Shown here one piece after another: positions 5,322 through 18,351 of a DNA stretch of 39,066 nucleotides. The notes beneath the pieces are model-generated. The model worked only from the letters and a program-made list of their open reading frames with translations, was not told the DNA's origin and searched no databases. Numbering within the stretch: position 1 is the first letter of the stretch; every line of letters begins with the position of its first letter. The translations under genes were made by a program, and so were the position numbers. Origin of the DNA: Ruminococcus sp. Lineage in GTDB: Bacteria > Bacillota > Clostridia > Oscillospirales > Ruminococcaceae. Location: positions 1-39,066 of the forward strand of contig JALCDN010000009.1 in assembly GCA_022641595.1 (NCBI GenBank), in the 5' to 3' direction.

Positions 5322-5473
5322 CATTAAAAGTGATGATTTTGCATTTTTAGCTTTATTTCAATTTTTTTATTAGTTTACGCTTTTTGGCAAAATAACAACT
5401 AAAGTTGAAAGTTCGGGTCAAGCCTTTTCCAAGTGATGGTAGCCCCCTCTGGCGATTTCGTACCAAGATATCT

Positions 5474-5558
5474 AAGAATCGAAAGTTTAGGTCAAGCCTT
5501 TTCAAAGGCTTGCGGAATCCAAAGGCGGAGCCTTGGTCGCCCTCCGCAGAGGGCGAAA
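5474..5558 (+). repeat. Left arm of 85-bp perfect inverted repeat
   Basis: Reverse complement of 5897-5981 read base by base; similarity continues imperfectly to about 5650. Confidence 0.93.
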
Positions 5559-5896
5559 TTCCCTGCCTTAGAAGCGCTCCGAAAGGGTGAATTTTAAGCG
5601 ATAGCTTAAAAGAGGGGAATCCCTGCAAGGGAGGGATTCCCCTTAATGCTATATAAATTAAAAATTGAATTTGCCACTCGGTAGCCAAAAGTTGAAAGTT
5701 CAGGTCAAGACTTTTCAAAGGGAGGGGTAGCCCCCTCTGGCGATTTCGTACCAAGATATCTAAGAATCGCATTTACCGCTCAGTAGCCAAAAAACAAACA
5801 TAAATATAAGGGAAATTCCTCTCTTACAGGAATTTCCCCTCTTTTAAGCTTTCGCTTAAAAATTCACCCCTTTCGGAGCGCTTTTAATGCAAGGCT

Positions 5897-5981
5897 TTTC
5901 GCCCTCTGCGGAGGGCGACCAAGGCTCCGCCTTTGGATTCCGCAAGCCTTTGAAAAGGCTTGACCTAAACTTTCGATTCTT
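5897..5981 (-). repeat. Right arm of 85-bp perfect inverted repeat
   Basis: Reverse complement of 5474-5558; imperfect similarity extends outward from about 5804. Confidence 0.93.
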
Positions 5982-6026
5982 GGCTACCGAGCGACAAATT
6001 TTAGCTTTTAGCATCTTGGTACGAAA

Positions 6027-15133: not shown

Positions 15134-16489
15134 ATGAATTCCTTTTCGGAAGTTTTTGAAAGCGTTAAAGCTTACTGCATCGAAGTAGGTAAAGTCAATG
15201 AGGTCGCTCTTAAAACCTGGATCGCCTCTCTTGAACCTGTCGAAATCGACGGCAAAAACGCTGTCTTTAAAGTTCAGTCTGAATTTCAGAAAACTATCGT
15301 TATCACTAATTACGATGATATCCTCAAAGAGGCTCTCAAAGCTGTTCTCGGCTTCGAGGTCGACATCGTCATCAACGTCGTCTCTATTACAAGCAACCCT
15401 AAAGTTCTTACCGACGACGAACTCGAGGAAAAACACGCTGAACTCGAAAAAAGCTACGAGTTCGCTGAGTATGACTACACTTTCGATACCTTCATTGAAG
15501 GTCGCTCTAACGAATTTGCTCTCGCTGCCTGCAAAGCTGTCGCAAAAAACTGCGGCGCTGACTACAACCCTCTTTTCATTTACGGCCCTTCCGGTCTCGG
15601 CAAAACTCACCTCATCACCGCTATCGCTAACGAGGTCAGAAAAAACCGCCCCTCATATAATGTTGTCTACGTCACAAGCGAGGTCTTCGGCAGCGAACTC
15701 ATCAGCGCTATCAACAACAAGGGTATCTCAGATTTCCACGAGAAATACCGTAACGCTGACCTCCTGCTTATCGACGATATCCAATTCTTCGCCAACAAGG
15801 AACGTATGCAGGAGGAATTTTTCCACACCTTCTATAAACTCCACTCAGAAGGTAAACAAATCGTCATTACTTCTGATAAACCTCCTAAAGAACTCGTTAC
15901 CCTTGAGGAACGTCTGCGTACTCGTTTCGAGGGCGGTCTTATCGCCGATATCTCCGCACCTGACTTCGAAACCCGCATCGCTATCATAAAACGTAAAGCT
16001 GAACTGCTTGACCTCACTATCCCAAGCGAAGTCGCTGAATTTATGGCAAACCGCCTTAAATCCAATATCCGTCAGCTCGAGGGCGCTGTTAAAAAACTCA
16101 AAGCTCTTAAACACCTTGCCGGCAGCCCTCCTTCTATTTCTATGGCTCAGAGCGTCATAAGAGATATCCTCACTGACGACCAGCCTATCCCTATCACTGT
16201 CGAAAAAATTATCTCCGAAGTCTCAACTGTCTACGGCGTCTCTCCTGACGATATACGCTCAAACAAACGCTCCTCTCAAATCTCTAACGCACGCAAAGTC
16301 GCTATTTACGTCGTAAGAGAAATTACTCAGATGCCTCTGGCTTCTATTGGCACAGAATTCGGCGGCCGTGACCACTCAACTATCGTTTACGCTGTCAACA
16401 ACGTCGCCAACGGTCTAAAAAAAGACGCTAACCTCAATACCCTCGTCTCTGACCTTATCAAAAATATCAAAGATAAAAATAAAGCTTGA
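15134..16489 (+). CDS. dnaA: Chromosomal replication initiator DnaA
   Basis: FIYGPSGLGKTHL, LLIDDIQFFANKERMQEEFFHTFY, C-terminal FGGRDHSTIVYA helix. Confidence 0.98.
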   Translation: MNSFSEVFESVKAYCIEVGKVNEVALKTWIASLEPVEIDGKNAVFKVQSEFQKTIVITNYDDILKEALKAVLGFEVDIVINVVSITSNPKVLTDDELEEKHAELEKSYEFAEYDYTFDTFIEGRSNEFALAACKAVAKNCGADYNPLFIYGPSGLGKTHLITAIANEVRKNRPSYNVVYVTSEVFGSELISAINNKGISDFHEKYRNADLLLIDDIQFFANKERMQEEFFHTFYKLHSEGKQIVITSDKPPKELVTLEERLRTRFEGGLIADISAPDFETRIAIIKRKAELLDLTIPSEVAEFMANRLKSNIRQLEGAVKKLKALKHLAGSPPSISMAQSVIRDILTDDQPIPITVEKIISEVSTVYGVSPDDIRSNKRSSQISNARKVAIYVVREITQMPLASIGTEFGGRDHSTIVYAVNNVANGLKKDANLNTLVSDLIKNIKDKNKA

Positions 16490-16519
16490 TTTCAAAAAAA
16501 ATTTTCGGCTTCTCTCATC

Positions 16520-16663
16520 TTGCGGACGCAGACGGCTTGCGTACGCAAGCAGGGGCTTTAAGTCGGCTGTTTTTCTTTATTCTATGAAGCTTCTTCCCCC
16601 GACTTAAAGCCCTTGATTTTCAAGTCCTACAGACTTGAAAATCCGTCTGCGTCTACGCTGCAA
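16520..16663. other. Nested inverted-repeat element, predicted four-way junction / cloverleaf (DNA cruciform or structured RNA)
   Basis: Outer stem 16525-16535/16643-16653 (11 bp), hairpin 16536-16549, inner 17-bp stem 16550-16566/16599-16615, hairpin 16616-16642 (11-bp stem, 5-nt loop), with no unpaired bases at the junction. Confidence 0.85.
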
Positions 16664-16690
16664 TTTTGTGTTTAAACAGCTTTTCCATAT

Positions 16691-17106
16691 CTTTCCACAC
16701 AGTTTTCAACTGAGTGTTGAAAACACTGTTGAATCAGTTTTTCTCCGACTGTACGATTTGTCGGCTGCCAAAAAATTGGTCTGATTTTTTCTTTTCACTT
16801 TTTCAACCGCAAACCATATCAACACTTTCAATAATTTTATACACACAGTATTTTCAGTTTCCACTTTTTTATCAACTATTTATAAACTTCAACTCCACTT
16901 TTTTCTGACATTTCAACACCAATTTCTGACTTTTAACTTATGCTCTTTTTGTCAACTTCAGGCGGTTGAATTTATTTCTCTCAATCTTCCGTGCTATTTA
17001 CCTGATTTTAACATATCCACACCCTCTACTACTACCACTATTTATCTTTTATCTTATCTTATCTCTTTATCTTTTTTCTTATCTTAACTTATCTTAACTT
17101 AAATCT
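16691..17106 (+). promoter_or_regulatory. Candidate oriC core (dnaA-dnaN intergenic): DnaA boxes, DnaA-trios, AT-rich unwinding region
   Basis: CTTTCCACA 16691, TTATACACA 16837-16845, ATATCCACA 17013-17021, then CTA-CTA-CTA-CCA-CTA 17026-17040 and CTTAT-rich tract 17041-17106. Confidence 0.72.
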
Positions 17107-17247
17107 CAAAAAGCAAAGCTTTAAAGCATCAGCTCTCTGAAAAGAACTCTTCATTTTTTAGGTTCTTTCTTTTACTTAAATTCTTTTGCATTTACTTTTT
17201 GTTACTTTCAAGGCTTAAACTAATTTCCTATAGAAAGGCGTTTTATT

Positions 17248-18351
17248 ATGAAATTCTCATGCAGCAGACAACAGCTATGTGACGCTATAAACTGCGTATC
17301 ACACGCTGTTTCACAGAAATCCACAATTGCCGCTCTCGAAGGCATAAAGCTCAATATTTCAGGCGATTTTCTCGAACTTACAGGCTACGATATGGAAATC
17401 GCTATCAGAACTTCTATTCCTGTACAATCAGACGATGACGGAGTTCTTGTTGTAAGCGCAAGACTTTTCAATGAATTCGTCAAGAGAATGGACGGCGATG
17501 CTATACTTATCGAAGTCGACCAGAACTTACAGATGAATATCTCAAGCAGTGCAACAGAATGCTCTATTTCTGCTATGTCTGCCGACGAATTTCCAGAGCT
17601 TCCTACCCTCAACCAGAACAGCGAACTCAAAATAAAACAGTCTGTTCTGAAATCAATGATTGCACAGACTACTTATGCTGCTTCAACCAACGAGAATAAA
17701 CCTATTCTTACAGGCGCTCTCTTTGATATATATGACGGAAACTTCACTATGGTCGCTATTGACGGCTTCAGACTCGCTATCAGAAACGAAATTATTGACG
17801 ATTCAGGTTCATATAAGTTCGTCGTACCTAAAAAAGCTCTCACAGAAGTTGCTTCACTCATAAAGGACGATAATCCCGAAGACCTATGCATAATCTGCAC
17901 CGACAACAAACACATAATCTTTCAGATAAACGGATTTACTGTAATCTCACGTCTTCTCGAAGGCGAGTTCCATAACTACAAAAGAAGTATTCCCGATTCA
18001 TTCAAAACCGAAATTATCCTCAATACAAGAGAATTTATCTCATGTATGGAACGCTGCTCTCTGCTTATCAACGACAAAAACCGTGCTCCGGTTAAATGCT
18101 CTTTCCAGAACGGCGAGGTCAGAGTCAACTGCAAAACCGCTATCGGTAAAGTAAATGACTGCTTTAAAGCCGATATCTCAGGCGAAAATGTCGAAATCGG
18201 CTTCAATAACCGCTACTGCCTTGAGGCTCTGCGTGCTGTTGACGGCGATAAGGTCAGAGTTCAGCTATCGGGCTGCAACAAGGTTATCAAATTTCTTCCG
18301 CTTCAGGGCGAAAGCTTCATCTACCTGCTTATGCCTGTTCAACTTAAATAA
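17248..18351 (+). CDS. dnaN: DNA polymerase III subunit beta (sliding clamp)
   Basis: 367 aa MKFSCSRQQLCDAINCVSHAVSQKSTIAALEGIKL..., C-terminal LLMPVQLK; follows dnaA. Confidence 0.97.
   Translation: MKFSCSRQQLCDAINCVSHAVSQKSTIAALEGIKLNISGDFLELTGYDMEIAIRTSIPVQSDDDGVLVVSARLFNEFVKRMDGDAILIEVDQNLQMNISSSATECSISAMSADEFPELPTLNQNSELKIKQSVLKSMIAQTTYAASTNENKPILTGALFDIYDGNFTMVAIDGFRLAIRNEIIDDSGSYKFVVPKKALTEVASLIKDDNPEDLCIICTDNKHIIFQINGFTVISRLLEGEFHNYKRSIPDSFKTEIILNTREFISCMERCSLLINDKNRAPVKCSFQNGEVRVNCKTAIGKVNDCFKADISGENVEIGFNNRYCLEALRAVDGDKVRVQLSGCNKVIKFLPLQGESFIYLLMPVQLK

Follow-up and report, generated by a model that had tools for sequence, protein, structure and literature searches.

The window, by which we mean the whole stretch of DNA analysed, comprises 39,066 nucleotides of contig JALCDN010000009.1 from a draft Ruminococcus sp. 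assembly (G000). It contains two neighbouring genes that, from their sequences, we take to be dnaA and dnaN, and in the gap between them a 129-bp non-coding element that can fold into a cloverleaf. Four perfect helices (P1–P4) join there without linkers or unpaired bases (16525–16653). The features of the locus are as follows.

15134..16489, + strand: dnaA, upstream neighbour, with its stop 35 bp 5′ of the cloverleaf (ORF list; the 3′ end matches relatives)
16525..16653, + strand: whole element, cloverleaf repeat, 129 bp (covariance model R2, 120.3 bits, E 7.9e-27; folding z −9)
16525..16534, + strand: P1 closing stem, 5′ arm GACGCAGACG, partner 16644–16653 (sequence, covariation)
16535..16550, + strand: P2 hairpin, GCTTGC-GTAC-GCAAGC (sequence, covariation)
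16551..16566, + strand: P3 stem, 5′ arm AGGGGCTTTAAGTCGG (sequence, covariation)
16567..16598, + strand: P3 loop, 32 nt (not conserved from copy to copy)
16599..16614, + strand: P3 stem, 3′ arm CCGACTTAAAGCCCTT (sequence, covariation)
16615..16643, + strand: P4 hairpin, GATTTTCAAGTC-CTACA-GACTTGAAAATC, arms 16615–16626/16632–16643 (covariation)
16644..16653, + strand: P1 closing stem, 3′ arm CGTCTGCGTC (sequence, covariation)
17248..18351, + strand: dnaN, downstream neighbour (ORF list)

The original prediction for this site described a set of nested inverted repeats, and a base-by-base reading finds each of the named stems in its place. The predicted four-way junction indeed has no unpaired bases, but its register lies one base over, as covariation in other copies shows. 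The additional TTGC/GCAA closure at the base is present in the copy beside dnaA and is not common to the others. RNAfold gives 16525–16653 a free energy of −74.8 kcal/mol versus −41.4 in shuffles (z −8.98; 0/200 as low), and a DNA folding model gives z −8.87. The cloverleaf folds on either strand with RNA or DNA parameters (z −9.0, −7.7 and −8.9 against dinucleotide shuffles), and the predicted structure is thus far more stable than shuffles under both an RNA and a DNA model (z −9.0 and −8.9).

The structure was said to occur only once, which is true within the window; the genome holds 17 copies. A DNA search of the draft assembly (1.97 Mb, 82 contigs, 81% complete) yielded 14 loci. Covariance model R2 was built from 14 copies, with a structure drawn by hand from the folds. 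R2 supersedes an earlier model, R1, which came from an unguided alignment and lacked P4. Searching the assembly with R2 returns exactly 17 copies with E values of 1e-19 to 1e-30. They are about 122–134 bp long, non-coding and dispersed, and none of the 17 overlaps a large predicted gene. The 5′ part, CGCAGACG-GCTTGC-GTAC-GCAAGC, is nearly invariant among them, and within this genome no part of the family is more conserved than P2. P3 and P4 are highly variable, and their changes are almost always paired. The tetranucleotide CGTC follows the P4 hairpin in most copies, where it is base-paired within P1. Other repeats also occur in the window: positions 63–495 hold 4.3 copies of a 102-bp unit (97% identity), and ORFs at about 5353–5772 and 5887–6000 encode the same peptide motif (LVRNRQRGLP..LDLNF) as that repeat. 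A motif common to three places in the window indicates a second dispersed repeat family in the genome.

The genes around the 17 copies, as judged from ORF calls, are tandem, convergent or divergent with no fixed pattern, and the copies stand in both orientations relative to them. Two copies have clearly convergent genes on either side, and these, together with the stable hairpins just past dnaA, would suit a transcription terminator, possibly a bidirectional one. At least five copies, however, lie between divergent genes, where a terminator is needless. The absence of a 3′ poly-T noted in the prediction is confirmed: neither strand of 16300–17300 contains a T tract or a terminator-like site. 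Termination is therefore a very unlikely function of the element. The location of the cloverleaf 35 bp past dnaA and ahead of the AT-rich dnaA–dnaN gap would also accommodate a cruciform or regulatory structure acting at the replication origin. Yet 16 further copies lie elsewhere in the genome, and the same gap is without the cloverleaf in G056, a relative with 81% identity in the dnaA end, and in two other relatives, G005 and G020. DnaA-box-like sites occur in the window no more often than by chance, and the one in the gap is outside the cloverleaf. The proposal of an origin cruciform is thus scarcely credible. The absence from the three relatives marks the dnaA-side copy as a lineage-specific insertion and not a part of the origin, although these relatives are too diverged to offer a base-exact empty site. 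Most likely, the copy 3′ of dnaA represents a chance insertion into an intergenic gap.

Alignment A4, in which the 17 copies were fitted to the structure, shows how the helices vary. Standard pairs occupy 96.2% of the pair cells, and both sides have changed in 22 of the 42 pairs (88 such cells); none of 500 shuffles reaches the pairing, pair or cell values. The covariation score is 0.372, compared with 0.127 when shuffled and at most 0.063 when slid, and sliding the partners by one base lowers pairing to 38%. These counts lean towards the structure, since R2 was drawn by hand and the alignment fitted to it, and the slid and shuffled controls are a partial remedy. Double changes occur in 10 of the 12 pairs of P4, and the two outermost pairs of P1 vary and covary among copies. 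The arms of P1, about 10 bp each, close the element but covary, unlike a fixed terminal inverted repeat. Pairing also continues outside the constant CGCAG/CTGCG: 16 of the 17 copies pair at least two more bases with their own opposite flank, versus 35% for mismatched flanks. P1 is extended in this way by 2–6 pairs in most copies and much further in C54b (at least 17 bp), C14 and C2b. Flank pairing and covariation together mean that the stems are kept complementary well beyond shared descent. Compensatory substitutions, the evidence on which the predicted fold depended, are present and speak for a real fold. The C54b copy (L045, G000:C54:10354–10478) lies within a very long perfect inverted repeat, which is hard to account for by simple insertion.

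A search of 124 further genomes from the genus with R2 gave no match. Among 398 genomes of the bacterial family, matches were obtained in G250 (E 6.2e-11), G129, G466 and G463, and G248, a member of the same genus as G463, has tens of more diverged copies. The homologues in other genera share the plan and recognisable P3 and P4 motifs while their P1 and P2 sequences differ; a left part ending in TTCAAC and a right end GTTATA are common to them, and CGTC is mostly absent. The possibility of a random single-genome insertion therefore holds for the dnaA-side insertion, which is specific to the species, and fails for the repeat family, which reaches other genera. Collections of phages (50,697 records) and plasmids (72,556 records) gave no match; three further copies are on two IMG/VR contigs, and those labelled L123 and L139 are on contigs classed viral. 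Phages or other mobile DNA may carry the repeat family between genera.

Two apparent occurrences were set aside. A hit in G124 (L030; R1, E 4e-4) is lost under the better model R2 and was taken as chance or a decayed copy. A copy on contig CALMXN010000091.1 (L028, binned as G133:C91) was dropped as a case of spread to another genus, for it is copy C30b, and its flanks match those in G000; the contig probably belongs to the same or a sibling species and was binned elsewhere. This copy adjoins a 466-aa ORF that, by appearance, is a candidate ISLre2-type transposase. Five G248 variants (L200, L204, L205, L207 and L208) carry an extra structured insert of about 50–60 bp in P4 (GAGGGTGCGG..GACACCTCTGC..), which suggests modular exchange of arms.

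The copies in G463 are the most alike. This genome has a 143-bp version in at least 40 copies that are 96–99% identical, as counted from 40 of 210 candidates scored. Alignment with flanks places the start of full-length copies at TTCAA and their end at TTATA, within unrelated flanking DNA, the ends of this version being TTCAA-TAAGGGGC...GTCATTCAAC ... AAGTTATA. No target duplication is visible at G463 copies with known ends, and two copies begin at a second, internal TTCAA. Fixed ends are also found in G248; in G000 a fixed left motif of the TTCAA type is unrecognisable and the ends lack the constancy seen in G463. In the rpoB–rpoC gap of G463 relatives the element is absent, but no base-exact empty junction is available. 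To judge from these sequences, the G463 pattern is that of a non-autonomous mobile element multiplied in a recent burst. In one G463 copy (L105) the left hairpin unit (TTCAATAAGGGGCTTGCCCCGTCA) is tandemly duplicated, as if an element had inserted in the inner TTCAA of another.

The burst reveals what happens to copies after insertion. Among 21 recent G463 copies, substitutions per site amount to 0.025 at paired and 0.027 at unpaired positions, and 45 single changes stand against 2 compensated double changes. One of the compensated changes, TA to CG, is in a copy (L082) otherwise about 98% identical to the consensus. The equal rates mean that inserted copies decay without visible constraint, so it is probably in the spreading lineages that the fold is maintained, being needed for spread and not at the site.

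Strong covariation over four helices, and a copy placed directly after dnaA, would also fit a structured ncRNA or an mRNA leader or tail element, transcribed and acting as RNA from many loci. Without the poorly aligned foot of P3, the G000 copies have 630 Watson-Crick, 9 G.T and 1 A.C pair cells. On the + strand G.T cells outnumber A.C cells, which would fit an RNA and leaves room for a constraint on one strand, as ssDNA or RNA; nevertheless, 9 G.T pairs in 640 are scarce for an RNA family. The P4 loops behave as DNA does, for some come in pairs that are exact reverse complements of each other (TGAAA/TTTCA, GTAAA/TTTAC and AAA/TTT). There are three such pairs among eight distinct loops, and 0 of 20,000 random-letter sets reach three; a shuffle of letters within loops gives a weaker result (0.015). 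By inspection, inverted loops are also found in G463 (TAG/CTA) and G248 (GAAG/CTTC). The scarcity of G.T and A.C intermediates and the repeated loop inversion point, at the level of sequence, to folding as DNA. Rfam contains no family matching the cloverleaf at gathering score, with noise only at E ≤ 10. Against an RNA role there are also the copies in both orientations, with several in divergent gaps, and the unprotected paired bases of recent G463 copies. The guess of a structured ncRNA is accordingly an unlikely one, and covariation among dispersed copies should not be taken as proof of a functional RNA.

Mutation itself may contribute to the pairing. Hairpin inversion by template switching would give inverted loops and could also correct the arms. 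It is conceivable, though we incline against it, that such switching and loop flips, in place of selection, are mainly what keeps the arms complementary; this would be compatible with a mobile element, and covariation would then say little on function. The loops in both orientations, the few wobble intermediates and the compensated change in L082 agree with this proposal. However, the predominance of uncompensated singles in G463 means that arm correction is slow relative to point mutation, and the fold persists between genera with wholly different stem sequences. Taken together, the signs of a DNA fold and the neutral decay after insertion suggest that mobility keeps the fold.

The cloverleaf is thus probably one copy of a short (about 130–145 bp) non-coding mobile DNA family, MITE- or REP-like, with members in several genera of a single Clostridia family. 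The original suggestion of a small mobile element is supported by the 17 copies and the G463 burst; the cloverleaf would be the whole element and not the ITR-like end of a larger one. In the pathway that we propose, the top strand would fold into the cloverleaf when single-stranded, during replication or excision, and a transposase supplied in trans would recognise the folded ends and move the element without target duplication. The fold would be kept by selection in lineages still moving, assisted by template-switch correction of hairpin arms, and inserted copies would decay neutrally. The transposase search covered the Y1 family in five genomes, G248 not among them. No Y1_Tnp was detected in G000, a draft 81% complete, and an IS200/IS605 partner was rejected because the ends of the IS200-type copies in G463 and G466 are unrelated to those of the cloverleaf. 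No Y1 transposase with matching ends was found in the five genomes, and the mobilising enzyme is therefore one that we infer.

Simple cut-and-paste movement does not explain the unfixed ends in G000 or the P1 arms that extend 2–6 bp (at least 17 bp in one copy) into flanks. A more speculative proposal, to which we give a rather low probability, holds that a new class of single-strand mobile element is recognised in the form of the cloverleaf, by an enzyme that reads the shape of the four-way junction more than its sequence. Such an enzyme would allow stems to be replaced between genera while pairing is maintained, and the palindromes would be continually renewed by template switching from arm to arm.

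The family can be compared with several known repeats. The bcr1 repeat of the Bacillus cereus group is comparable. Prokaryotic MITEs include QMITE2 of Coxiella, ERIC and the pneumococcal RUP and BOX (PMC10969869). In common with MITEs and bcr1, the cloverleaf is short and non-coding, with many dispersed, mostly intergenic copies, a stable fold and near-identical recent bursts. It differs from them in that no target duplication is visible, that its ends consist of a closing stem with three internal hairpins at a four-way junction instead of plain terminal inverted repeats, and that no related autonomous IS was found (Y1 only, five genomes). CGTC-tagged REPs are single hairpins of 8–9 bp with an unpaired CGTC tag, are reported from five other phyla, and are also without a known transposase (PMC3733652). 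Like them, the cloverleaf is a palindromic extragenic repeat, with CGTC after P4 in most G000 copies, and the Y1 search found no dedicated transposase for it. Its CGTC is paired in P1, however, and its length is 4–5 times greater; a 129-bp element of four helices is not the single 20–40 bp hairpin with an unpaired tag that defines those REPs.

Non-autonomous derivatives of the IS200/IS605 family have a fixed left flank, a fixed right end and subterminal hairpins, move without target duplication, and resemble the G463 and G248 copies in these respects. The latter show a fixed 5-nt left flank (TTCAA), and some of them begin at another TTCAA further in. Such derivatives do not usually have a four-helix body or a left hairpin spaced as it is here, and no Y1 transposase with these ends was found in the five genomes searched. 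In agreement with the prediction, no described element of this form was found in the open-access literature searched, and the family is apparently undescribed as far as that literature and the collections reach. Since the defining features of MITEs and REPs are not fully shared, we file it as a new MITE/REP-like family with a cloverleaf body, which adds to the Clostridia an apparently undescribed structured mobile repeat family with a near-identical recent burst in one genome.
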